Below the pieces are notes generated by a model that was given only the letters and a program-made list of their open reading frames with translations, was not told where the DNA came from and did not search any database. DNA of 64,000 bases, from assembly GCF_026210795.1 (NCBI RefSeq), contig NC_089441.1:3968001-4032000 (forward strand), written 5' to 3'. Both the position numbers and the translations under genes were made by a program. Positions 2,341-53,400 of the stretch are shown piece after piece (position 1 is the stretch's first letter; the number at the start of each line of letters is the position of its first letter). This stretch comes from Rhizophagus irregularis. Taxonomy: Eukaryota > Glomeromycota > Glomeromycetes > Glomerales > Glomeraceae.

Positions 2341-2505
2341 TAGTATTCCGAACAGATCGGATCAGACTGGATTTTAATCAAATCTGATCTGATCCGAATT
2401 CGAATCAAATAAAATCAGATTCGATCTGATCTGATCCGAATCCCAACTGATTTGATTTGATCTGATCCGGATCTGATCTGGATCCGAATCAGTTTTCATA
2501 ATTAA
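2341..2505. repeat. Left subterminal repeats of hAT-1
   Basis: Dense overlapping words GATCTGATC, GATCCGAAT and AATCTGATC in both orientations. The right end carries the same words. In hAT elements such arrays are usually transposase binding sites. Confidence 0.8.
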
Positions 2506-2514
2506 ATCAAATAA

Positions 2515-2810
2515 AAAAGTCTTTCGCAACATTTTTTTTTAATATAGTTATAAGACGTTGCGAAATGACTTTTTATTGACAAATTATCAAATAAAAAACA
2601 TTTTTCGCAACGTTTTTATTAATACAGTTAAAAACCATTGCGAAAACGATTTTTATCGGTAAATTATCAAATAAAAATGTTTCGCAACGTTTCTCATTAA
2701 TACAGTTAAAAAACGTTGCGAAAGACGTTTTTTTATTAAATAAATATCTTTTCGCTACTTTCTTTACTAACACGGTTAAAAACCGTTGGGAAAGCATTTT
2801 TTTGTTAATG
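2515..2810. repeat. GTTGCGAAA hairpin repeats, left copy
   Basis: Four to five units in which TTTCGCAACG and CGTTGCGAAA alternate as inverted repeats separated by AT-rich loops. The same motif forms the much larger array at 11530-12890 near the other end of hAT-1, so the two flanks are related. Confidence 0.8.
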
Positions 2811-2819
2811 TATAAATAA

Positions 2820-4350
2820 AAATGTTAAAAAAACGGTGTTATATTGTAAAAAAGATGACATTTCAGCATCTTTTCATATTATTTTATGAAAAAAAGATGC
2901 CGAAACAGCATCTTTTTCATTTTTTTTACAAAAAGATGCCGAAATGGCATCTTTTCATATTGTTTCATAAAAAGAGATGCCATTCGGCATCTTTTCGTAT
3001 TATCTTATGAAAAAGATGTCAAAACGGCATTTTTTTAATTTTTTTTTATCAAAAAAGATGCCGTTCCGGCATCTTTTCGTATTATTTTATGAAAAAAATG
3101 CCGAAATGGCATTTTTTTCATTTTTTTTATCAAAAAAGATGCTGTTTAAAAAAGATGCTGAAACAGCATCTTTTTGTATTATTTCATGAAAAGAGATGCC
3201 GAAATGGCATTTTTTCGTATTATTTTGGCGAAAAAAAGATTTATAAAACAGCATTTTTTCATTTTTTTTATCAAAAAAGATGCCGAAATGGCGTCTTTTC
3301 GTATTATTTTATAAAAAAAGATGCCAAAATGGCATCTCTTTCATTTTTTTTTATCAAAAAAGATGCTGTTTCAGCATCTTTTCGTATTATTTTATCAAAA
3401 AAGATCCATTTCGCATCTTTTTCATTTTTTTATCAAAAAAGATGCTTCGTTTCGGCATCTTTTCGTATTATTTCATGAAAAAAGATGCTGAAACAGCATC
3501 TTTTCGTATTATTTCATGAAAAGAGATGCTGTTCAGCATCTTTTCGTATTATTTTATGAAAAAGATGCCAAAACGGCATTTTTTTTATCAAAAAAAATGC
3601 TGTTTTGGCATCTTTTCGTATTATTTTATCAAAAAAAATGCTGTTTTGGCATCTTTTCGTATTATTTTATCAAAAAAATGCCATTTCGCATCTTTTTCAT
3701 TTTTTTATCAAAAAAATGCCATTTCGCATCTTTTTCATTTTTTTATCAAAAAAATGCCATTTCGCATCTTTTTCATTTTTTTATCAAAAAAGATGCCGTT
3801 TCGGCATCTTTTCGTATTATTTCATAAAAAGAGATGTCAAAACGGCATCTTTTTGTATTATTTCATAAAAAGAGATGCTGTTCGGCATCTTTTCGTATTA
3901 TTTTATGAAAAAGATGCCGAAACGGCATTTTTTTATCAAAAAAGATGCCGAAACGGCATTTTTTTTTTATCAAAAAAGATGCGAAACGGCATTTTTTTTA
4001 TCAAAAAAGATGCTGAAACGCATTTTTTTATCAAAAAAGATGCTGAAACGGCGTCTTTTCGTATTATTTCATGAAAAGAGATGCCATTTCAACATCTTTT
4101 CGTATTATTTTATAAAAAAAATGCTGAAACAGCATCTCTTTCATTTTTTTTTATTAAAAAAGATGCTGTTTCGGCATCTTTTCGTATTATTTTATGAAAA
4201 AAGATGCCATTTCACATCTTTTTCATTTTTTTTATCAAAAAAGATGCTGTTTCGGCATTTTTTCATATCATTTTATGAAAAAAGATGCCGTTTTTTGGCG
4301 TCTTTTTCATTTTTTTTATCAAAAAAGCACCGAATCAGCGTTTTTTCATA
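2820..4350. repeat. Array of GATGCCG...CGGCATC hairpins
   Basis: About 25-30 units of roughly 50-60 bp. Each contains an inverted repeat such as GATGCCGAAACGGCATC followed by tttcgtattattt and a short A-rich spacer. Variants change both arms together: GATGCTG/CAGCATC, GATGCCA/TGGCATC, and GATGCCG/CGGCATC with loops AAA or TTT. The apparent open frames here come from low stop density in A/T-biased repeats and are not genes. Confidence 0.9.
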
Positions 4351-4527: not shown

Positions 4528-6859
4528 CTAACTACTGTTAAACAATGATAATGACCACCACGACCTTAAACATAAACACATTCTTATAGTTTTCCCAACC
4601 AACCGGTTTCTTTTATCAGTAATCAAATTTTTTCCTGATGAAAAAACTTGCTCGCGGTACACTTGCTGGCTGGGATTGATAAAAAATCACGTGCCATTTT
4701 AGCAAGGCTTGGAAATTGTTGCTCATTATTCTTCCACCATTCAAGTGGATCTTCGTTTCCATCAAGCTGGGGTAAAGAAAGATATATTTGGTATTCATCA
4801 GCAGAACTTTCCACACGACGACGTTTGAATACACGGGACATTACGACTTTTCTTTATTAGGAGTTTCAGTTTGATCAGATTGAATAGTGATTTATTATAC
4901 ATACTTAAAAACCTAAAAATTTAATAAAATTATAAAATTAGTATATATAATTGTAAATAATATAAATAATTAGTAAAATACTAACTTTTGTTGAATATCA
5001 TTTATTAATTCATCTCCCCATTCATTATCCTTATAATATTGTAATTTCAATCTTGGATCCAAAATAGTAGAAATTAAATATGAATAATTTATCTTGTTGT
5101 AATACTCCAGCAATTTTAATCTGCATATTTTCGCAGCATTTTTTATAATTTGACTCCATTCATTCTCATTGTTGTTGCCACTATTAGCTTCAGATTCATC
5201 ATCTACATCTTCAATAACTTCCTCATTTTCATCTCCAATAACATTTACATCTCCAATAACATTTTCAACATGATCAATAAGAATATTATATAAATGAATA
5301 GTAGCAGAAAGTGTTGGATAAGTAAATCCAGACATTATAGTTGTTACTTCTTTAAATAAAAATAAAAAATCCTTAATTTTTTCAAGTTCAGCCCATTGAT
5401 TCTTTGTAAGTAAATATTTTTTAAGATCACGATCATTAAGTGTAACAGAATCAATGGCCTAATTATATAATTAAAATTAATAAATAATTGAAATTATTAA
5501 AAACTTAATATTTACAAAAATCAACTTACAATTTTTAATTGTAATGATCTTGAAATCATTTCGTAAGTGGAATTCCACCTCGTAGGTACGTCAGGTATAA
5601 GTGTTAAATCCTTTAATTGATTATTTTTACATGCCATTTTTAATTTTTCACGACGTAAAGAAGATGCACGAATTCTATTAACAAGATCTCTAAGCTGTAA
5701 GATATAATAATTTTATTAGTATTAAAAAAAGAATTTATAAAATAATAAATAAGTTAAATAATAATTTTACCTTAGAAATTTCACTTTCCAATTGGGTCAA
5801 TGCTGCTTGAACACTTAAATTAATGGACATGGGCAAAACACCTAAAATGATTATCATTTTTATCAAAAGAAATTCTTTTTTCTATTGCCCAATTAGTTAA
5901 TAAATGAATGAATACTGCATTATTTGACATATTATCTAATGTAATGCCCATTAACTATAAATATTAAATATTGGTAAATTTGATAATTAATTAAATTAAA
6001 ATCAGAATAAACTAATAAAAAATAAAAATACTTTTTTTTCCATTAAAAAATACTCTAAACCTGTTACAAATGTTTCTTTTAAATTTTGCCCAGTATGTGA
6101 ATCAAACATTTCAAGAAAATCCAACAGTATATGTTGTAATTTCCAGTCCTTATCAATAAAATGTGCAGTTATTGATAAAAATGATTTGACTGAAGGACTG
6201 GTCCAGCAGTCAATTGTAAATGAAATTTTTCTTGGAATATTTAACAAAATATTTTGAACTTTTTCTCTGTCAGTTCTATAAAAATTCGAAATATGAGATT
6301 TAATTGTGTCAGCACTGGGAATTTTCGCAGTGGGGTGTAATGAATGTATAAAATTGATAAATTCTGGCTCCTCAGCAATTGTAAATGCATGTTGTTTAAT
6401 AACAATCCATTTTACCAGATTATTTATCATTTCATTATGATCATATGACCACTAAATAATAATACAATTATCTATTAATAAATAAAATTTATGAAATAAA
6501 AATAAAATAAGAAGTTATTTTTACCTTTGGTGCTTTTAACATTTCTAAAACATTTACTCCAGTTGACTGAGTTTCTTGCTGTATAGAATGAACATTTTTT
6601 AAATGTTTTGTTATATTCGTAGTACTACCCCCAGAACATATATAAGTTTTGCTGCAATAAGTACAGGTAGCTTTCTTTTATTATATTTAAAATTTTCATC
6701 TTTTTCGAAATGGCTCCATACAAAACTGCCTTGATTATTTTGAGCATTTTCTAACGATTCTAAATTACTTAATCTTCTTGCTGGTGTTGCCGGTAGGGAC
6801 GCATCAATTTCATCCTCAGAATTATGACAACTTCCTTCATTGTTGTCTTCTGCGTCCAT
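4528..6859 (-). pseudogene. Decayed hAT transposase (BED finger, RNase H-like core, hAT C-terminal domain)
   Basis: Read on the minus strand from an acidic leader (MDAEDNNEGS). A BED zinc finger follows (VWSHF..., then CTYC...HLKNVH), with a frameshift near 6675. Next come the hAT core blocks TIDCWTS and WKLQHILLDF at about 6100-6220, then TLDNMSNN near 5935. The motif HFRCFAHV near 5830 is followed by a one-base shift. After that are RWNSTYEM near 5570, LDPRLKLQYY near 5050, DPLEWWK near 4740 and the C-terminal ARDFLSIP block. The final VFSSGKNLITDKR block is reachable only after another frameshift and ends at a stop at 4528. Several short introns with GT...AG ends separate the blocks. At least three frameshifts make it non-functional. 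It is the only protein-coding relic of hAT-1. Confidence 0.88.
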
Positions 6860-6950: not shown

Positions 6951-7014
6951 TAGTGTTCCAAACGGATCAAATCAGATGAATCTGATTTTGACTCGAATCC
7001 ATTATTTAAAAAAT
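6951..7014 (+). repeat. Internal end-like sequence of hAT-1
   Basis: TAGTGTTCCAAACGGATC followed by AATCAGATGAATCTGATTTTGACTCGAATCC-type words repeats the design of the outer ends (TAGTATTCCGAAC plus GATC-rich words), but points right. It may be a remnant of an older insertion or an internal duplication of the terminus. It is cut at 7018 by the nested element. Confidence 0.5.
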
Positions 7015-7199
7015 GTTCACAGGTCGAACAGATGTCATTGTCGCAAAATTTGCCTGGAATTTTTCTGGCAAATTGAGAATTATCCCGGTAAATTGGGGTA
7101 AATTGTGTTACAATTTTGGGATAATGGAGGACTTACAATTTGGCAAATTTTGTCAAAATGGCGGAATTCCTACAGAATTCCTAATTCAAATGTTGAGAA

Positions 7200-7760
7200 A
7201 TTTTTCAGTAAATTATCATTAATTGTGGGAAATTTTAGGTAAATTTTTAGTAATTTTATGTAAATTGTAGTGAATTTAGTCAAATTTTTAGTAATTTTAT
7301 GTAAACGTAATGTGAATTTAGTCAAATTTTTAGTAATTTTATATAAACGTAATGCAAATTGTGGTGAATTTAGTCAAATTTTTAGTAATTTTATGTAAAC
7401 GTATTGTAAATTGTGTAAATTTTAGGCAAATTTTTAGTAATTTTATGTAAACGTAATGCAAATTGTAGTGAATTTAGTCAAATTTTTAGTAATTTTATGT
7501 AAACGTAATGCAAATTGTGGTGAATTTAGTCAAATTTTTAGTAATTTTATGCAAACGTAATGCAAATTGTGGTGAATTTAGTCAAATTTTTAGTAATTTT
7601 ATGCAAACGTAATGCAAATTGTGGTAAATTGTAGTGTATTTTTAGTAATGTTATATAAATTGTTGAAAATTTAGGTGAATTTTTCAGCAATGTTGTGCAA
7701 ACGTAATACAAATTGTGGAAAATTGTGGTGAATTTTGCATTTTTTCGGTAAATGTTAGCT
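7200..7760. repeat. 52-bp minisatellite
   Basis: Tandem units built on gtgaatttagtcaaa, tttttagtaatttta and gtaatgcaaattg, with a period of 52 bp in the best-preserved central units. Diverged at both edges. Confidence 0.85.
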
Positions 7761-8149
7761 AAACTTTTGATAATTTAGTGAAATTTAGGATAATTTTGGA
7801 CAATTGAGTGAAAAATGTTTTACTGATTTTGTACAATTGAGTGTAAACAGTATAAACACAACATTTTCGGAGACAATTTAGTGAAATTTTGCAATAATTT
7901 CAGACAATTGAGTGAAATTTTGCAATAATTTCGGACAATTGAGTGAAATTTATTTAGTAATAATTTTAAACAATTTAGTGCAAATACCATGACAATTTAA
8001 AACACTGGTTTAATAATTTTACATAATTTATTACAATATTATTTATTAACAAATGCACAATTATTATTTAACGATGAGAATCAGATATCCAATGATCCAT
8101 GGGTAATCCGCACATCTAATTCATTCATGTATCTCCGATGCCAAAGTAG

Positions 8150-9860
8150 AAGCTGGTGAAAACCTACAAAAAAGAAAGTAAAGAAACGTTAGTTAACGTT
8201 TCTTAAAAAAAAATTAATAAAAATTAAGTTTCACAACCAATGTTGCGAAACTCACCGGTTCGTTTTGATTTCTATTATCCAAACGTCCGGAACCTACAAA
8301 AAGTAAAAAAGAAACGTTAGGTAATAATGTTTCTTTTAAAAAAAAAGAACAAAAATTAAGTTTCACAATGTAACATTGCGAAACTTACCGGTCGTTTCAT
8401 TCATTCTAACGTCTGGAACCTACAAAAAGTAAAAAAGAAACGTTAGTTAACGTTTCTTTTAATAAAAAAAAAACAAAAATTAAGTTTCGCAATGTAACAT
8501 TGCGAAACTTACCGGTCGTCTCATTCATTCTAACGTCTGGAACCTACAAAAAGTAAAAAAGAAACGTTAATATAAACGTTTCTTTTAATAAAAAAAAAAC
8601 AAAAATTAAGTTTCGCAATGTAACATTGCGAAACTTACCGGTCGTCTCATTCATTCTAACGTCCGGAACCTACAAAAAGTAAAAAAGAAACGTTAATATA
8701 AACGTTTCTTTTAATAAAAAAAAAACAAAAATTAAGTTTCGCAATGTAACATTGCGAAACTTACCGTCATTTCATTCATTCTAACGTCCGAACCTACAAA
8801 AAGTAAAAAGAAACGTTAGTTAACGTTTCTTTTAATAAAAAAACAAAAATTAAGTTTCGCAATGTAACACTACGTTACACAAGTCGTTTTATTCATTCTA
8901 ACGTCAGCTACAAAAAGTAAAAAAGAAATGTTAATATAAGCGTTTTAAAAAAAAAAGAGTAAAAATTAAGTTTCGCAACACAATGTTGCGAAACTTACCA
9001 GTTCGTTTCGATTTCCATTATCTAAACGTCCGGAACCTACAAAAATTAAAAGAAAGAAACGTTTAGTATCATTTCTTTAAAAAAAATTAATAAAATTGTT
9101 TCGCAACACAATGTTGCGAAACTTACCGGTTCATTTCGAAGTTCATTATCCAAACGTCCAGAATCTACAAAAATTAAAAGAAAGAAACATTTAGTATCGT
9201 TTCTTTAAAAAAAAATAATTAAAAAAATAAGTTTCGCAATACAATATTGCGAAACTCACCGGTTCGTTTCGATTTCTATTATCCAAACGTCCGGAACCTA
9301 CAAAAAGTAAAAGAAATGTACGTTAGTATCGTTTCTTTAAAAAAAAATATAATTAAAATTAAGTTTCGCAACAATTGTTGCGAAACTTACCGGTTCGTTT
9401 CGAGTTTCAAACGTCCGGAACCTACAAAAAAAAGAAAGAAACGTTAGTTAACGTTTCTTTTAATAAAAAAATTAATAAATTAAGTTTCGCAACGATTCAT
9501 TGCGAAACTCACTGGTTCGTTTCATCCAAACGTCTGGAACCAACAAAAGAAGGAAAGAAACGTTAGTTAACGTTTCTTTTAATAAAAAAAAATTTTTTAA
9601 AAAAGAAAATATTACCTTCCTCGCAAAGCAGGTCGTAATTTCGTCCGGCGTTCTACAAAAGAAGAAAGGAAACGTTAGAAACGTTTCCTAAAAAAAATTA
9701 AAAAAAAGTAAGTTTCGAACACGAAACTTACCATTTCACTTTCCGAAGTTGAAGACCTACACAAAAGAAAAATAGGAAACGTTAGAAACGTTTCCTTACA
9801 AAAAAGAATTAAAAAAAATTTTTTTTAAAAAAAAGTTTCGAAGCGAACGCTTCGAAACTT
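8150..9860 (-). repeat. Tandem micro-exon/intron array (about 14 units of 120-128 bp)
   Basis: Read on the minus strand, every unit has: a pyrimidine-rich stretch ending tttttgtag; a 31- or 38-base exon-like block starting GTTCCGGACGTT and ending ACCG; a perfect donor GTAAGTTT; a 13-bp hairpin starting at the donor (AAGTTTCGCAATG / CATTGCGAAACTT); a T-rich stretch; and a second hairpin GAAACGTTAACTAACGTTTC whose loop holds the branch-point consensus CTAAC about 24 bases before the next AG. Acceptors lie near plus-strand 8293, 8421, 8543, 8670, 8793, 8908, 9034, 9160, 9295, 9420, 9537, 9652 and 9755. Exon blocks are not multiples of three, so a spliced product would probably be non-coding or frame-rotating. 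Splicing is inferred from signals only. Confidence 0.8.
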
Positions 9861-9879
9861 ACCATTGTTTTTCTGAAAG

Positions 9880-10140
9880 ACGGTTTCGGGAAAGGGAAAG
9901 GGAATGGGGAAGGAGTGGGGATCAAAAGAAAAGGAAAAGGGCGGAGGGGAGAAGGGGAGAAAAAGAGCGAAAGTGAAGGTGAGAGAAAGAGGGAAGGAGA
10001 AAAAAGAGGGAAGGTGAAGGTGAGAGAAAGAGGAAAGGTGAAGGTGAAAGAAAGAGGGAAGGGGAAGGAAAAAAGAGGGAAGGGGAAGGTGAGAGAAAGG
10101 GGAAGGAGAAGGGCGAAAGAAAGGAGAGGTAAAGGCCGTG
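9880..10140. repeat. Homopurine/homopyrimidine tract
   Basis: About 260 bases almost purely of G and A on the plus strand, built from ggaagg, gagaaag and ggtgaa words. It lies directly upstream (in minus-strand sense) of the micro-exon array, after an exon-like block ending ACAAT|GGTAAG. The open frame rich in K, R, G and E here is a product of base composition. Confidence 0.85.
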
Positions 10141-10190
10141 AAAAAAAAAAAAAATTAAGCTTTTGCTAAAAAAGCTTAATTTTTTTTTTC
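10141..10190. repeat. Strong foldback with poly-A and poly-T arms
   Basis: TTAAGCTTTT / AAAAGCTTAA at about 10154-10180 with a short loop, extended by A14 on the left and T10 on the right. On either strand it has the shape of a hairpin followed by a U-run. Confidence 0.75.
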
Positions 10191-10197
10191 GTTATAC

Positions 10198-10266
10198 GCA
10201 GCTGAAGCTGCGGTAATTATTAAGTAATATCACGTGACGCACGTGATATATAATTTTATATAAATA
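10198..10266 (+). promoter_or_regulatory. Promoter-like module: CACGTG palindrome plus TATA box
   Basis: A small CAGCTGAAGCTGCGG foldback is followed by the palindrome ATATCACGTGACGCACGTG (10227-10249), which contains two E-box/CACGTG sites, and a TATATAAATA box at 10257-10266 reading rightwards. The same order (CACGTG, then a TATA box about 20 bp on) recurs in copy 2 of this element family at 62772-62802. It lies between the leftward micro-exon array and the rightward repeats. Confidence 0.5.
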
Positions 10267-10379
10267 GGGGCTTTCCCCCGCCCCGGAATTTTTTTTTTTA
10301 TTTTAATAATTTTAAATAGATGTATATATATGCTTATATATACATATATATATATCTATTAACTAATACTTTACGAAAA

Positions 10380-10500
10380 GCTCCTCCTCTGTAAACAGGT
10401 AGAGGCCATAAAGTACCTATAGGGGGAGAGCCATTGCTGCTCCCTCCGCCTGTTTATAGTGACAAAAAGAGGGAGTCTTCAGTAGTAAGGTTTAGTACTA
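10380..10500 (+). other. GC-rich foldback, possible structured RNA
   Basis: An island of unusual composition downstream of the TATA-like box. TAAACAGG (10392-10399) can pair with CCTGTTTA (10449-10456). Inside that, GGGGGAG (10422-10428) pairs with CTCCCTC (10440-10446) using one G-U pair. A further GGGAG at 10470 could compete for the same partner. No known RNA family is recognised. Confidence 0.4.
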
Positions 10501-10679
10501 AATTAAACATCACAACACATCGTGTTGATACATTGTTTATATTAACAATGTGATTTAATGTTAAATAATTCATTTAGAATATAAATATTATAAATTTAAT
10601 AATGTTCGTAATTTACAAATAAATAAAAATAAAAATTAACAATTTTAATGTAATTAAGTGTAATGCTACGTTATCCAGT

Positions 10680-11460
10680 GTAATTGTAGTATTTTTTTTG
10701 TGTTTTTTAGCGCAATTCCGCATTTTTTAGTGCAATTCCACATTTTCTAGCATAATGTTACATTTTCCAGTATAACGCGAAATTTTCTAAAAAATGTGAT
10801 AATTGTGATGCTTTTTAGTGTAATTTGGTGAAATGCTACATTTTCCAGTGTAATGCCATATTATTGAGCATTTTCAAAAAAAAAATGTAACATTTTAACA
10901 TTCTGACGAAAGTGAAACATTTGACCAAAAAAACATAAAATTTGCTGAAAATATGCAACATTTGACAAAAAATATAGAATTTTCATAAAAAAATGCACAA
11001 TTTGCTAGAAAATTGGAATATTTGACAAAATTTGATTTTAATTGACAATGTTATAACAATTTTATGAAATGTTGTTACAATGATATCACATTGGAGATAA
11101 AATGTGGCATTTTCATAAAAATGCACCATTTGCAAGAAAATTGGAATATTTGACAAAAAAAAAGCAAAATTAGATTTTAATTGACAATGTTATAACAATG
11201 TTATGAAATGTTGTTACAATAATATTACATTGGTGACAAAATGCGGAATTTTCATAAAAATGCACCATTTGACAAAAAAAAGCAAAATTTGATTTAATTG
11301 ACAATGTTATAACAATGTTACGAAATGTTACATTTGAGGTGTAATGTAGCATTTTCCCAAAATTTCATAAGATTTGTTAAATCGGACAATGTTGTAACAA
11401 TGCTATTCCAAAAAATTGCTCAGCGTAATGTAGCATTTTCCACAATTTCCCAACATTTTC
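10680..11460. repeat. Right subterminal repeats of the nested element
   Basis: Loosely tandem words acattttccagtgtaatg and tgacaaaatgcaacattt, then a diverged repeat of about 120 bp containing TTGACAATGTTATAACAATG at about 11040, 11175 and 11300. No gene is seen. Confidence 0.65.
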
Positions 11461-11529
11461 CAGGAAAATGGGGAATTTGCATTTTTTGAATTTTGGACAA
11501 TGGTGCCCCTTCGACCTGTAGTTACATAA

Positions 11530-12890
11530 CGTTTTTTATTTCAATTTAACGAATAAAAAACCATTTCGCAACGGTTTTTTAATCATTTAATAAAAAACGT
11601 TGAGAAACATTTTTTATTTCAATTTAACGAAAAAAAAACCATTTCACAACGGTTTTTTAATCATTTTAATAAAAAACGTTGTGAAACGTTTTTTATTTCA
11701 ATTTAATGAAAAAAAAACCGTTGCGAAACGGGTTTTTAATCATTTTAATAAAAAACGTTGCAAAACGTTTTTTATTCCAATTTAACGAATAAAAAAAACT
11801 GTTTCGCAACGGTTTTTAATATTTTAATAAAAAAACGTTTGCGAAATGTTTTTTTATTCAATTTAATGAAAAAAACCATTTCGCAACAGTTTTTTAATCA
11901 TTTTAATAAAAAACGTTGCAAACCATTTTTTATTCCAATTTAACGAATAAAAAAAACCGTTTTGCAACAGTTTTTAATATTTTAATAAAAAAACGTTTGC
12001 GAAACATTTTTTTATTCAATTTAATGAAAAAAAACTGTTTCGCAACGGTTTTTAATTATTTTAATAAAAAAACGTTGCAAAACGTTTTTTTATTTCAATT
12101 TAATGAAAAAAACCATTTCGCAACAGTTTTTCAATTATTTTAATAAAAAATGTTGCGAAACGTTTTTTATTTCAATTTTTAATGAAAAAAAAAACCGTTT
12201 TGCAACGGTTTTTTAATATTTTAATAAAAAAATGTTTGCGAAACATTTTTTTATTGCAATTTAATGAAAAAAAAAACCATTTCGCAACGGTTTTTTAATA
12301 TTTCAATAAAAAAACGTTGCGAAACATTTTTTTATTTCAATTTAATGAAAAAAAAACCATTTTGCAACGGTTTTTTAATATTTTGATAAAAAAATGTTGC
12401 GAAACGTTTTTTTATTTCAATTTAATGAAAAAAAACCGTTTTGCAACGGTTTTTTAATATTTTAATAAAAAAACATTTCGCAACGGTTTTTTAATATTTT
12501 AATAAAAAAATGTTGCGCAACGGTTTTTTAATATTTTAATAAAAAAATGTTGCGCAACGGTTTTTTAATATTTTAATAAAAAAATGTTGCGAAACGTTTT
12601 TTTATTTCAATTTAATGAAAAAAAAACTGTTTCGCAACGTTTTTTTAATATTTTAATAAAAAAACGTTGTGAAACATTTTTTTATTTCAATTTAATGAAA
12701 AAAAACTGTTTCACAACGGTTTTTTAATATTTTAATAAAAAAATGTTTGCAAAACGTTTTTTTATTTCAATTTAATGAAAAAAAAACAAAAACATTGCGA
12801 AACATTTTTTTATTTCAATTTAATGTAAAAAAAACCGTTTCAATTATTTTAATAAAAACGTTGCGAAACATTTTTTAACAATTAACTTAA
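11530..12890. repeat. GTTGCGAAAC hairpin array, right copy
   Basis: More than 20 units with the pattern aacgttgcgaaacg-tttttt-atttcaatttaatga-aaaaaaccgtttcgcaacgg-ttttttaat, each arm self-complementary, giving alternating hairpins. It matches the smaller array at 2515-2810 near the other end of hAT-1. The apparent short open frames are artefacts of the repeat. Confidence 0.88.
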
Positions 12891-12954
12891 CAATTCGCAA
12901 CATTTTCAATTTAATAACAGGGCATTTTTTCATCTTATTTTTATAAAAAAAGGC

Positions 12955-27886: not shown

Positions 27887-28329
27887 GTATCTATATTAAA
27901 ACTTACTTAATGGATATTATGCTTATATTATTATATATTTTTTAATACTTTCTTTAAATTTTTATATGAAGAGAAGGCCTTTTTCTTTTTCTTGTATTTT
28001 TTAGCAAAACTTTACAAGTTTTTTTTATTAGCTTATCAGATATATATTTCTTATTTTTTAAACTTTTTCTCAAAGAAGTTATGACCATTAACTTCTTACA
28101 TTTCTAAAATTTTAATAGCTATTTTGCTAAGTTCTAAATCCTGACTCTTTAAAAATTGATAAGATTATTTTATTTATATTTTTAATAATTTCATTCACTA
28201 GTAAAATTATTTTATATTCAGCATAATAGTAAAGATAGAAGTAGTTAAAGTATAAAATGTACTAAGATATAGTGATTTTATAGAAATATTTGGCTTAAAT
28301 AAAAAATAGTGTTACATTCTAAAGTGAGT

Positions 28330-28833
28330 AAAAATTTATTTCTGAAAAAAAATAAGTATTAATATATTGTTATTTTGTCAACAATTAAAACCACTGAAAA
28401 ATTTTAATATTTTAACAGATTAACTAGAGTTTAACTTAATAAGAAAGTCTTAAATTAACTACAAATAATTATGTGAAATAATGTTAAATATTCAGTTAAA
28501 GAAAAATAGGTTTTTATTAAAATAATGTAAGACTTTAAATATGATAAAAAATATAGATAATTTTTTGTTCACAAAAAATTATAAAAATTTATTTCTGAAA
28601 AAAAATAAGTATTAATATATTGTTATTTTGTCAACAATTAAAACCACTGAAAAATTTTAATATTTTAACAGATTAACTAGAGTTTAACTTAATAAGAAAG
28701 TCTTAAATTAACTACAAATAATTATGTGAAATAATGTTAAATATTCAGTTAAAGAAAAATAGGTTTTTATTAAAATAATGTAAGACTTTAAATATGATAA
28801 AAAATATAGATAATTTTTTGTTCACAAAATTAA
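28330..28833. repeat. Nearly perfect 252-bp tandem duplication
   Basis: The block starting aaaatttatttctgaaaaaa is repeated head to tail with a 252-bp offset (for example aataagtatt at 28351 and 28603). I see almost no differences between copies over about 245 bp. It is either a very recent duplication or an assembly artefact. Confidence 0.93.
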
Positions 28834-37223: not shown

Positions 37224-38309
37224 TTATAAATCTGTAATTGCCCAACCAATAACAGGGGAAACGATTATTTCATCATTTTCTAAATGAATTTCTTGCTTTG
37301 TACCAAAAAAACCTGAAACTATTTTAATATTAGGAGAATTATTTGAATCAACAAATGGAATTGAAATTTTACCGTCAGGAATATCAAGTACTTTAATACA
37401 ATTACCATCTAAAGGTTTATTACCTTTAGCATACGGAAAAAAAGCGGGTATCCAGCCCGTTAATGTAACATTATTACCTTTTAAATCTATATTATTATCA
37501 CCTTCTTGACCAAAATTTATCTCAGTAGCTATAGTATTCCAAAAATTTAAATCAATATCACCTTTATAAGTTGAAATGAATTGATTAAGTACAGGTTCTA
37601 ATCTATCTAACCAAAAATCTAAATCTAAAGATAACTTTTTTAATGTAATGACTTTTTCTTGAATTTTTAACCAATCATCTAATGTACCGTCAAGAGTTAT
37701 TTTATGAATACCACATATATCTGAAGAATTTTTAATGGTTTCATAAGTTGAATTAGAATGAACGGAATTCAATAATACTAAATCACTTGAAATTTTACTA
37801 GAATTTGTACTAGTAGAAAAATTACAAGATAATAAATCTTTTATAGTAATAAGTTCTTTCATTGCAAGGTTTAATCTACCAAATAATTTAATCCAATGAT
37901 TTTCCTCATTATCATATAATAAATCTCCTCCATAGATTTCCACCCTTTTTTGACCTTGATGATTTACAATAATCGGTCTATATTTTTCCGAATTATTATT
38001 AATATGTTGAGAAATTCCTTGAGCGATAATTAACCATACGTCATCTGGTTTTAGAAATAAATGTTGATTTGATGAATAAGCTTGTAATATTGCTGCTGCA
38101 AATCCATTTGTACAATGAGAAGCGGATATAACTTTAGTCGGCAAATTTCCTGATTCGAAATCCGTCCATAATGCATGGATTTTTCTATTATTAAATTCTA
38201 CCGTTAGTTTATCTTGGATTAATGTATGCTCAACCAGTTCATTTACTTGTTTACGATATTCGTTAAGTATTTGAGTACTACGATAATTTGTTCTAACAGA
38301 AGAAGGCAT
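37224..38309 (-). CDS. DUF4419 domain protein, 361 aa
   Basis: Contains the hallmarks of the DUF4419 family. SHCTNGFAAAILQAYSSNQHL lies near residue 63-83. DDVWLIIAQGISQHINNNSEKYR at about 88-110 is the family's conserved 'DDxWLxIxxQ' region. GIHKITLDGTLDDWLKI at about 200-216 is followed by DLDFWLDRLEPVLNQFI and DLNFWNTIATE. Near the end is GNNVTLTGWIPAFFPYAKG (the family's SGWI-x-AFF block). No signal peptide or membrane segment. Single exon; the start at MPSSVRTNY is the first Met after A/T-rich leader DNA and gives the expected full length. The function of the family is unknown. It is transcribed toward the F-box gene and away from the kinase gene on its right, so the two may share the intergenic region 38310-39361. 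Confidence 0.92.
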   Translation of the reverse strand: MPSSVRTNYRSTQILNEYRKQVNELVEHTLIQDKLTVEFNNRKIHALWTDFESGNLPTKVISASHCTNGFAAAILQAYSSNQHLFLKPDDVWLIIAQGISQHINNNSEKYRPIIVNHQGQKRVEIYGGDLLYDNEENHWIKLFGRLNLAMKELITIKDLLSCNFSTSTNSSKISSDLVLLNSVHSNSTYETIKNSSDICGIHKITLDGTLDDWLKIQEKVITLKKLSLDLDFWLDRLEPVLNQFISTYKGDIDLNFWNTIATEINFGQEGDNNIDLKGNNVTLTGWIPAFFPYAKGNKPLDGNCIKVLDIPDGKISIPFVDSNNSPNIKIVSGFFGTKQEIHLENDEIIVSPVIGWAITDL

Positions 38310-39361: not shown

Positions 39362-40987
39362 ATGGATTTAAATAGACTTGCCGCTCTTGGATGTTGTTCT
39401 TGGTATTTTAATAACAAATCAAAAGTATTTATCTTCATAATCATATCATTATCTTCTTTTTTTCTTTCATAAATTAAAATTTTATTAATCTTTTCTCATC
39501 CTCTTTTCTTCCTCTTTGCTTTTTCTATTTTAGAAATCTTCCGATAAAAGAGAATTATCACAACAACAATCACAACAATCGAATTCATTAAAAGATTTAA
39601 AAGTACGTCGTAAACAATACGGTATATGTTTAAAATGTGGAGATACTTTAACAGATTATAAATATTGTCAATCATGTTCTTCTAATGAATTTCAATCAAA
39701 ATTCAAAAGTTGGACAAGTGGTAATGAATACATTGATGATTTTATACAACGTTCTCAATTAACCGCAATAAATAATCAATCTTATTTATTATGGATACCT
39801 TACGATGATTTAATTGATATAAAATATTTGGCGAATGGTGGTTTCACTTCAGTTTATTCTGGTACTTGGGATCATTTTGAAACCGGTGAAATGGTTGATA
39901 TCGTTCTAAAACGTTTACATAATGGTCAAATTTCTAATCCAGAATTTTTAAAAGAACAAGTTTCAATTCTTTTATATGGTGCAGTAAATAATGGTAATAT
40001 CGTTAGATGTTATGGTTTCACTAAACATCCTACTGAAGGTTATATGTTGGTATTAGAATGTGCTCAAGATGGTGATTTAAGAAGTTATCTTCGTAAACAA
40101 TCTTCTACTTTATTATGGTCCGATAAATTATTGATTCTTAGAGAGATTTCAAAATCAATTGATTTACTTCATAATTATGAATTTGTTCATGGTGATTTAC
40201 ATACAGGAAATGTATTAAAAAAGCAAACTTTATCATCTCGTATTAAGAAGAAAAAATCTAATTATCGTAATACTAGGGAAATAATTCTTGATATACCTTT
40301 ATGTTTTGATCCTAATAATCCAATCACTGTTAATCCATATGGTGTTATACCTTATGTTGCTCCTGAAGTATTTGAAAAAGGTTATTATACCAAATCATCT
40401 GATATTTATAGTTTTGGTATGATAATGTGGGAATTATCTACGGATCAAGCTCCTTTCTTTGAATATAGTAATGATAAAGCTTTAGTCGATGATATACGTA
40501 ATAATATTCGTCCTGAAATTGATGATCAACAAATTCCTAAATGTGTTGTTGATTTAATACAAAGATGTTGGGATTCCGATCCGTTTAATAGACCTTCTGC
40601 CAAATCGATTACAAGTATAATTGATGAATGGATTTGGATTTTATCCGCTACAAAAATTAGATTATCAAATAAATCTAAGGATGTATTAAATCAATTTTCT
40701 TCTGCTAATAATACTACAAAGAAGAAAGTTAAACGTCAATCAAAACTACCTCTTTCACTTTCTCGTACTCCTACATTGCTTAGAAATAATAATTATTATA
40801 GTAAACCTTTGAGCAAATATTTAACCAGAATTGATGTCGAAAAATCAGCTAATGCTTCATCATTTTCTTCTACAGAATCTGTTAACACTAGTAAGTATTA
40901 TTCTAGATTTTCTTTTAAATGATTTGAAATTTTTTGGAAAGAATTCACCGACACCTTTTTTCTTTTTTTTTAGTTACATATCAATAA
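39362..40987 (+). CDS. Protein kinase-like protein with degenerate DFG (possible pseudokinase)
   Basis: Gene model from splice signals. Exon 1, 39362-39424, encodes MDLNRLAALGCCSWYFNNKS plus K. The intron (39425-39533) has donor GTATTT and acceptor TTTTAG. Exon 2 runs from 39534. It encodes a Q-rich linker, a Cx2C...Cx2C zinc-ribbon-like leader (CLKCGDTLTDYKYCQSC) and TSGNEYIDDFIQRSQL, both typical of this fungal kinase family. The kinase domain has glycine loop ANGGFTSVYSG, Lys in IVLKRL, catalytic loop HGDLHTGN, APE motif YVAPEVF and DIYSFGMIMWE. The Arg of HRD is Gly, and at the DFG position the sequence reads LDIPLCF, so the Gly is missing. A GTAAGT donor at 40891 and poly-T/TAG acceptor ending at 40973 give a short last exon ending at 40987. 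Without that splice the stop is at 40922. Role unknown. Confidence 0.85.
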
Positions 40988-52129: not shown

Positions 52130-53400
52130 TAGCAGAAGACTAGCAGAAGTATCATGGAAAGTATTTATATATATTCATAGGCTTTATGAATATTTATAAT
52201 ATTAATAAATTATACATGAAAAAGCTTTGCAACAGCTGCTGGAAAAATGAACGCGTACTTTCAATATAGTAGAAGTATGGAAGTTATTTATATTTCATAA
52301 TTTCATTAATATTCGTAGGTTTACGACTATTTCATAATATTAATAATTGTTCATGGAAAGTTTTGCGTACAATATAATGGTAAAGGTATGGAAAGTATTT
52401 ATACTCCATAATTTAACTATTTTATACAATATTAATAATTATAACTGTTGGTCTAACTTTTGAACTTATAAAGTAAAAATAAAATTAACGCGTGCTCTCA
52501 ATGTAGTAGTGTAGAAGGAATGGAAGGTATTTGTACTTTGTAATTTCGTTAATGTGTTTACGTCTTTTTTATAAAAAATATTAATAATCACGCATAATGA
52601 ACTGTTGGTTTAACTTTTTGAACTTGTAGAAATAAAGTTAACACGTGCTTTCAATGTAGTAGTGTAGAAGGAATGGAAGGTATTTGTACTTTATAATTTC
52701 GTTAATGTTCGTATGTTTACGTCTTTTTTATAAAATATTAATAATCGCATAAAATGACAACTGTTGGCCCAATTATTGAACTTGAATATTCGTTGATGCA
52801 GAAATGAATTTAACGCTCTCAACGTAGTAGTGTAGAAGGAATGGAAGGTATGTACTTCACGATTTCGTTAATGTTCGTATGTTTACGTCTTTTTTATAAA
52901 AAATATTAATAATCACGCATATTGAAACTGTTGGTTTAACCTTTTGAACTTGTAGAAATAAAGTTAACGCGTGCTCCCAACGTAATAGTGTAGAAGGGAT
53001 GGAAGGTATGTATTCCTTAATTTCGTTAATGTTCGTATGTTTACGACTTTTTAATAATAATCACAACTGTTTGGTCCAACTTTTTGAACTTGTAATGTTT
53101 GTTTGATGTAGAGATGAATTTAACGCATGTTCTCAACGTAATAGTGTAGAAGGAGTGGAAGGTATGTACCTCACAATTTCGTTAATGTTCGTAAGTTTAC
53201 TTTTTTTTATAAAAAATATTAATAATCACGCATAATGATAACTGTTGGTCTAACTTTTGATCTTGTAATATTCGTTGATGCAGAAATGAATTTAACGCAT
53301 GCTATCAACGTAGCAGTGTAAAAGGACTGAAGGTATGTACTTCATAATTTCGTTAATGTTCGTACGACTTTATTACAATTATGTTTATAGGTTAAGTTTT
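52130..53400 (+). repeat. Second micro-exon/intron tandem array (about 9 units of 110-165 bp)
   Basis: Read on the plus strand, the better-preserved units contain an acceptor (tttgaacttgtag or gttgatgcag). After it comes an exon-like block of about 45-50 bases starting AAATRAAKTTAAC and ending GTAGAAGGAATGGAAG, then a donor GTATGTAC or GTATTTGT. The intron-like part contains atttcgttaatgttcgtatg and a tataaaatattaataatc stretch. Donors fall near 52549, 52680, 52847, 53007, 53163 and 53332. A final acceptor (taatcgcag, near 53505) leads into a K/E-rich block to about 53600. Exon blocks contain stops in some frames, so the product is uncertain. Confidence 0.7.

Follow-up and report, generated by a model that had tools for sequence, protein, structure and literature searches.

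A tandem array of micro-exon blocks and intron-like spacers with two predicted hairpins, carried by a CACTA-like element of Rhizophagus irregularis

The minus strand of a 64,000-nucleotide stretch of the Rhizophagus irregularis genome (NC_089441.1, positions 3,968,001 to 4,032,000; hereafter the window) contains a tandem repeat whose unit resembles one very short exon followed by one intron, and this raises the question of whether such a repeat is a gene built of spliced modules, and what carries and multiplies it. The origin and multiplication of introns and very short exons is an old question, often studied on old, blurred cases. The array probably forms the main part of a micro-exon gene that lies in a non-autonomous DNA transposon of CACTA-like type and grew as units of one exon and one structured intron were duplicated in tandem. 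The parts of the locus, in the direction of the array, are as follows.

9867..10145, minus strand: pyrimidine-rich tract, 89% C/T, before the first exon; putative promoter or 5' leader
9863..9865, minus strand: ATG closing the first exon (AAACAATG then GTAAGT); ATG at the same place in 32 of 40 parsed loci
8164..9862, minus strand: array of 14 intron-like spacers and 13 micro-exon blocks (from sequence, repeat search and intron parse)
9541..9615, minus strand: degenerate unit with donor GTAATA and acceptor TTG; 3' border set by eye
8794..8876, minus strand: degenerate unit, acceptor retained and donor lost; 5' border set by eye
8420..8512, minus strand: example intron of 93 nt; the GTAAGT donor opens hairpin 1, CTAAC lies in hairpin 2, and the acceptor is TTTTTGTAG
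8030..8163, minus strand: last exon; AATAAA occurs at 8047 and at 8032; putative 3' end

Fourteen intron-like spacers of 75-106 nt follow one another from 9862 to 8164. Their donors read GTRAGTTTCG in 12 of 14 cases and GTAATA in one, and one donor is lost; the acceptor is TAG in 13 and TTG in one. All 14 contain a branch-like word (CTAAC in nine, TTAAC in three, CTAAA in two), which stands 22-26 nt from the spacer end in every case. The array begins at an exact donor (AATG/GTAAGT at 9862) and ends at an exact acceptor at 8164, while the borders of the two damaged spacers (9615-9541 and 8876-8794) were set by eye, the intron parser having extended the former to 9534 and missed the latter altogether. 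The 13 blocks between the spacers measure 25, 37, 28, 31, 38, 38, 38, ~31, 29, 31, 31, 31 and 38 nt, the ~31-nt block being the one that adjoins the lost donor. Tandem Repeats Finder reports periods of 126, 128, 119 and 250, and the head-to-tail arrangement of units of tens to some hundred base pairs makes the array a minisatellite. All 12 minus-strand occurrences of the word GT[AG]AGTTTCG in the whole window fall within the array, as does its single plus-strand occurrence; the acceptor word TTTTTGTAG occurs 14 times on the minus strand (11 within the array) and three times on the plus strand (none within it). Rfam at gathering scores gave no match within the window. A preliminary description of this locus had proposed a repeat unit of one micro-exon plus one intron, in about 14 units with donor, acceptor and branch point; the spacers, blocks and signal words bear this out for a unit with an intron-like spacer. 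Its block length of 31 or 38 bases stands for the 8 of 13 blocks that are cleanly bounded at those lengths, and fails for those of 25, 37, 28, ~31 and 29 nt. The palindromes in the spacers and the location of the array in a terminal inverted repeat (TIR) element of its own, described below, were absent from that description.

Three further parts of the window are recorded here as separate observations. A second array at 52460-53340 on the plus strand has exon-like blocks of ~50 nt (AAATGAATTTAACGC...GGAATGGAAG) and intron-like spacers of ~103-122 nt running from GTATGT or GTATTT to TAG or CAG; its sequence is unlike that of the main array, and it has no two clear hairpins. At 28329-28829 two 253-bp copies stand in tandem with 100% matches, either duplicated very recently or produced by the assembly. 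A DUF4419 domain and a protein kinase domain are encoded in open frames at 37224-38309 (minus strand) and 39828-40922 (plus strand).

The preliminary description had spoken of a family of copies, and this family extends across the genome. With 501 bases of the array as the query, a DNA search identified at least 40 loci, a number that is a floor because 40 of 316 candidates were scored. From these 40 loci, the window included, we parsed 467 introns, of which 450 are 70-112 nt and 439 are 75-108 nt long; the branch A lies 20-28 nt before the intron end in 276 of 315 introns. A donor-hairpin pattern has 76 matches in the genome and a looser version 481 exact matches, with none for the control in either case. 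Pyrimidine tracts resembling that of the window are found at four loci (L032, L051, L052 and L055), and a last exon related to that of the window at L031. The copies fall into sets with different block lengths: 6 of 10 copies of one set have a fixed series of 38, 33, 41, a 179-nt stretch holding a further intron, 21, 32, 28 and 41 nt, followed downstream by a second array of 42-nt blocks, and others, like that of the window, have runs of 31 and 38 nt. A later version of the parser merges some units and missplits the 42-nt blocks. Eight loci beyond the 40, found with the 76-match donor-hairpin pattern, were also inspected. In seven of them unit follows unit, in several cases with different blocks and hairpin arms and with the order of signals unchanged; the eighth (L052) is an array start whose first donor hairpin is followed by other sequence, and no locus among the eight shows a lone intron within an ordinary gene. 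Several families have a common signal order with different arm sequences.

Further arrangements were seen at individual loci. A micro-exon array with GTAAAGTTTCGA donors, TTTTTGCAG acceptors and different exon blocks lies on the minus strand of L042 at ~6960-8660. At L032, the 42-nt blocks (5590-6400) have, by eye, a hairpin over the exon/intron border with the donor in its loop, and a polypurine stretch just upstream of these blocks is a possible pairing partner for the pyrimidine tract found where the gene begins, also as judged by eye.

Existing annotation offers an independent view of the splice sites. Protein searches with joined blocks retrieved 18 database proteins, all with Rhizophagus irregularis in the part of the name displayed. 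All 13 proteins that were compared contain an exact stretch across at least one parsed junction and 12 of them across at least two, with a maximum of five. One of them (P0005, RIR_jg40944.t1) agrees with the window copy along 31 residues and across three or more junctions, and another of the 18 (P0014) has a GLOIN_2v name. According to the accessible text of the source, the RIR gene models were made by AUGUSTUS with intron hints from RNA-seq (PMC6123716). Annotation of strain DAOM 197198 has drawn on poly(A) Nanopore and stranded Illumina RNA (PMC10234402, PMC6123716), and small RNAs of ~24 nt are described for the species (PMC10234402). Some models, P0005 among them, retain part of an intron or omit blocks, as if picked for an open frame, and the models may be largely ab initio. 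As predictions, some with intron pieces or skipped blocks, they are independent calls of the same splice sites and not proof. Splicing of the array introns is a prediction for which these gene models speak. The matches suggest that some 'hypothetical proteins' in the R. irregularis annotation are gene models over transposon micro-exon arrays.

The same proteins bear on the possibility that the blocks are coding repeats of a short protein, with the exons joined in changing combinations by splicing. That short proteins spanning the junctions are present in public databases fits this explanation, as does the reading frame of the blocks themselves. Among 49 distinct 31-mers, one frame has a stop in seven (open in 42) compared with 43 and 39 in the other two frames, and the non-CpG variation falls mostly on third positions of the open frame; a coding ancestry is possible on these grounds. 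In the 55 distinct 38-mers two frames are open (stops in 11 and 6) and the third is stopped in all 55. The 42-nt blocks of one subfamily are a multiple of three and can be read as 14-residue repeats. However, 31 and 38 nt are not multiples of three, so that runs of like units rotate or break any frame, and one-base length differences are frequent among the copies. In 32 of 40 loci an ATG directly precedes the first called intron, and allowing any of the first three introns raises this to 39, yet the frame that it opens is no longer than the others: over 39 copies its median length is 11 codons, the two remaining frames reach 25 and 7, and no conserved open frame from the first-exon ATG was found in these copies. 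We regard a present-day repeat protein as possible and somewhat unlikely, and continue with a gene whose product would be mostly non-coding.

The preliminary description had argued that donor and acceptor words stay intact while spacers and exon blocks drift, as would be expected if splicing were selected. We compared the variability of splice sites with that of spacers, column by column, in five copy sets comprising 24 loci. Per-pair differences are 0.12-0.26 in CpG columns and 0.01-0.04 in other columns, a several-fold to more than ten-fold contrast that is somewhat inflated by our definition of a CpG column as one in which any copy has CG. The argument from drifting exons is confounded, because the exon blocks are CpG-rich while the donor word is without CpG. 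With CpG excluded and bases matched, variability is lower at the donor than in the spacer (P 0.01) and in the micro-exon (P 0.03), and lower in hairpin 1 than in the micro-exon (P 0.01); the acceptor and branch words of recent copies, with CpG excluded, do not differ in variability from the spacers. The part of the argument that holds is a mild conservation of the donor; acceptor and branch words are no less variable than the spacer, and the drift of the exons is largely CpG decay. Copies evolve nearly freely once inserted, and the evidence for selection lies in the sameness of the signals between subfamilies and not within recent copies. The excess of differences at CpG columns of the array copies fits the expectation from cytosine methylation of transposons.

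The spacers hold a second layer of order. An inverted-repeat search of the window showed that they contain palindromes, and the units typically have the order donor, hairpin 1, spacer, hairpin 2 at the branch point, pyrimidines, YAG and micro-exon. Hairpin 1 opens at the donor (AAGTTTCGCAA...TTGCGAAACTT) and hairpin 2 surrounds the branch word (AAAGAAACGTTA AC TAACGTTTCTTT). Compared with mononucleotide shuffles, predicted folding has a median z of -5.95 for introns of type A, -5.57 for type B, -3.29 for unassigned introns and -0.81 for type C, in samples of at most 25 unique introns per type; type C is barely below its shuffles, and its hairpin spans the exon/intron border, as seen by eye, and was cut off.

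We aligned 44 divergent introns, chosen by a parser that demands splice words, and counted pairing in each hairpin. In hairpin 1, 97.4% of cells are paired and 6 of 13 pairs have double changes; in hairpin 2, 89.1% of cells are paired, with double changes at 5 of 10 pairs, a result that leans on our own choice of structure, since RNAalifold alone returned hairpin 1 only and we drew hairpin 2 manually on the alignment before counting its pairs. Over both hairpins 93.7% of cells are paired, compared with 38-53% when the 3' side is slid by 1-3 columns. When the 3' letters were shuffled among introns 88.2% of cells still paired, because the arms resemble each other across introns; the observed 11 of 23 pairs with double changes compares with a mean of 7.4 in these shuffles, and 6 of 500 shuffles reach 11. 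Compensatory changes are thus present in both predicted hairpins of the aligned introns. Hairpin 1 has an RNA-like excess of wobble pairs, with G-U over C-A in 201 versus 72 cells and 51 versus 27 distinct contexts; hairpin 2 displays the reverse (97 versus 188 cells, 26 versus 33 distinct contexts). An intron with donor and branch point each on its own stem leads to the prediction of structure-assisted splicing in an AT-rich genome.

A bolder reading of these structures is that splicing itself is the cargo of the transposon, in that self-folding modular introns would ensure efficient processing and let the element evade host RNA surveillance or RNA interference. As splicing would remove each module, their number could then vary freely, and if this were true the modules would represent a standing supply of new host introns and micro-exons. 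We hold this to be a long shot, and keep to the micro-exon gene.

Palindromes may also be kept for reasons that have nothing to do with RNA, and the array could be a palindromic satellite that is maintained for a function of the DNA itself, such as the binding of a transposase, with the splice words incidental. The window does contain other palindromic satellites (2493-4350 and 11528-12900) with a TTTCGCAA word that resembles hairpin 1, the covariation of the arms could come from palindromes alone, and hairpin 2 is without RNA-like wobble excess. To set against this, 40 loci were scanned with a strand-symmetric donor-palindrome pattern and the bases just beyond each arm were inspected, a procedure free of the requirement for splice words on which the parsed intron counts rest. 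GT stands beside the donor-side palindrome in 341 of 358 distinct contexts in the sense direction and in 11 of 358 at the mirror position; no more than 36 nt beyond the hairpin 2 pattern, pyrimidines and then YAG are present in 388 of 692 cases in sense orientation and in 0 of 634 in mirror orientation, with the loci oriented beforehand by donor-word count and the counts non-independent because the copies are related. A palindrome maintained for its own sake would not give one-sided GT and YAG, which argues against a purely DNA-level reading. GT donor, branch word near YAG and restriction to a single strand are the marks of a spliceosomal intron, and the spacers show all three; the branch distance suits introns, hairpin 1 prefers wobble pairs, and the several families have different arms in a common signal order. 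We judge a DNA-level satellite to be very unlikely. The satellites at 2493-4350 and 11528-12900 flank a hAT transposase; those with TTTCGCAACG are mutually inverted, and their core word is like hairpin 1.

The micro-exon gene that we favour has a carrier with boundaries of its own, and the features that define it are listed here.

7018..11520, no strand: CACTA-like TIR element of 4,503 bp that carries the array (ends TACAGGTCGAAG / GTTCGACCTGTG; genome-wide end patterns; empty site)
7015..7017, no strand: target site duplication GTT (AAC on the array strand), low side
11521..11523, no strand: target site duplication GTT (AAC on the array strand), high side
11510..11520, no strand: terminal inverted repeat at the 5' end relative to the array gene; first base T, not C
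7018..7028, no strand: terminal inverted repeat at the 3' end relative to the array gene
7198..7736, no strand: minisatellite within the element, 3' side (Tandem Repeats Finder)
10909..11292, no strand: minisatellite within the element, 5' side (Tandem Repeats Finder)
4616..6859, minus strand: hAT transposase gene of the host element, outside the array element (PF14372 and PF05699 in 2 of 4 pieces)

Homology among copies of the array loci ends abruptly at CACAGGTCGAA and TTCGACCTGTG. We compared 20 long stretches, six of which are without one or both ends and were left out; among the remaining 14 copies with both ends in reach, 13 have CACAGG...CCTGTG termini, the window copy having T for the first C, and 12 have matching 3-bp target duplications, the exceptions being L035 and L037. 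These duplications (CAT, TAG, ATA, TTA, AAT, TCT, TTT and AAC) are mainly AT-rich and without fixed sequence. When the flanks of the window element are joined at one AAC, they run unbroken through other hAT copies: all 214 query bases match at 97% at C1:2817600, 205 bases at 98% on C11 and 212 bases at 97% on C5, and there are three weaker matches. The array is part of a TIR element of its own that inserted into an older hAT element, and is not part of the hAT element. CAC...GTG ends, a 3-bp duplication, internal repeats near both ends and size classes with shared ends are traits of CACTA elements. The element starts with CAC and ends with GTG as a family and makes 3-bp duplications without fixed sequence, and by this structure, ends and target duplication, we place it as CACTA-like.

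Because the hAT transposase lies downstream on the same strand, with the array ~1.3 kb upstream of its start, the array might be taken for the 5' leader of the transposase mRNA, a scarcely credible origin that we reject given the element's own ends, target duplication and empty site in array-less hAT copies, and given that, within the stretches covered, this transposase lies downstream in array orientation in none of 19 other 10-kb loci (partial or reversed matches occur in L045 and L048).

Across the genome there are at least 74 left and 80 right family ends with at most two mismatches, and none with reversed-pattern controls. Ends within 13 kb of each other give 56 pairings, two of which share a right end. 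Forty are of up to 6.4 kb, and 33 of these contain a listed array locus; 16 are of 7.0-9.5 kb, and six of these contain one. Of 62 array loci, a hand-made list from the array search and the donor-hairpin pattern search, 38 lie inside a pairing. Among the donor-hairpin matches listed, which cover C1 to part of C5, matches are present in three of seven small array-less pairings and in neither of the two large array-less pairings of that range. Among the matches listed, no transposase was found within the 56 paired elements: none of 150 PF02992 (Transposase_21) matches, listed from a larger number, and none of 123 listed PF18759 (Plavaka) matches start inside them. One PF02992 match, on the same strand, is located ~3.1 kb inward from an unpaired left end (C1:4394603). 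Ten elements of 8.0-9.1 kb (e.g. C5:2548067-2556034) have both family ends and no listed array loci, and are possible candidates for autonomous partners. In a curation of R. irregularis transposable elements, the available text states that large TIR elements were retained only with a transposon-domain match, and short transposase-less elements only up to 1 kb (PMC11075540); under these rules, as far as that text describes them, an array-type element of 4-6 kb would miss both classes.

Taken together, these observations suggest how a micro-exon gene in a CACTA-like element might work. Transcription would begin at the pyrimidine-rich tract, each intron would be removed singly by the spliceosome, and the hairpins, whose role we infer along with any benefit to the element, may shorten the path linking donor, branch and acceptor. 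The joined micro-exons would form a short, mostly non-coding RNA with its end near 8030. Unequal exchange would add and remove units, and the 31- and 38-nt units of the window subfamily may have multiplied thus; since each unit has full splice signals and leaves ~30 nt, its gain or loss would have little effect on the transcript. Single copies decay afterwards, largely at CpG. The two damaged units in the window copy count against this reading.

The family is suited to the study of such changes. Many copies, some of them recent (e.g. 97% alike), vary in the number and order of similar exon-plus-intron units, and with fixed ends, datable insertions and differing units the gain and loss of intron modules can be traced stepwise. 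If reads confirm splicing, this would be a new testbed for intron and exon multiplication.

The element shares CAC...GTG ends, the 3-bp duplication, repeats inside the ends and size classes with shared ends with the CACTA / EnSpm (CMC) elements; it differs from them in having no transposase that we could find and an interior consisting of a micro-exon array. We know of no CACTA element with such an interior. Micro-exon genes, for example those of schistosomes, have very short exons that are mostly multiples of three and coding. The array also has mostly very short exons; these are mostly not multiples of three, and they are transposon-borne. The preliminary description knew of no transposon family organised in this way. 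Our literature search, whose coverage left out most subscription papers, found no description of micro-exon–intron arrays in transposons, which agrees with it for the internal array, whereas the ends and target duplication are of an ordinary CACTA-like kind; what appears to be new, as far as that literature search can tell, is the array.

Two groups of tandem-repeat genes were considered and set aside: the SP7-like effectors, in the accessible text, have one conserved intron ahead of the first repeat and not tandem micro-exons (PMC11333574), and tandem-repeat cell-surface genes are described with one or two introns, unlike the array (PMC8786786). Fungal introner-like elements (PMC4457414) and introners (PMC9860276) are, like the array introns, families of related short introns, and stable secondary structure has been reported for the former, as cited in PMC8469720. 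By the portions of these papers available, introners sit singly in unrelated host genes, whereas in the array family the whole element is mobile and introns multiply in tandem with an exon. The internally symmetrical stwintrons of Hypoxylaceae (PMC8469720) are likewise proliferated fungal introns with inverted repeats that are genuine on one strand only; as the available part of that account has it, they have one long inverted repeat over the ends and no target duplication, in contrast to the two separate hairpins of the array introns. Intron gain by tandem duplication (PMC4974935), again going by the accessible text, is alike in that tandem duplication yields new introns; in the array family, by comparison, the exon-plus-intron unit is repeated up to about ten times per gene, over tens of transposon copies.
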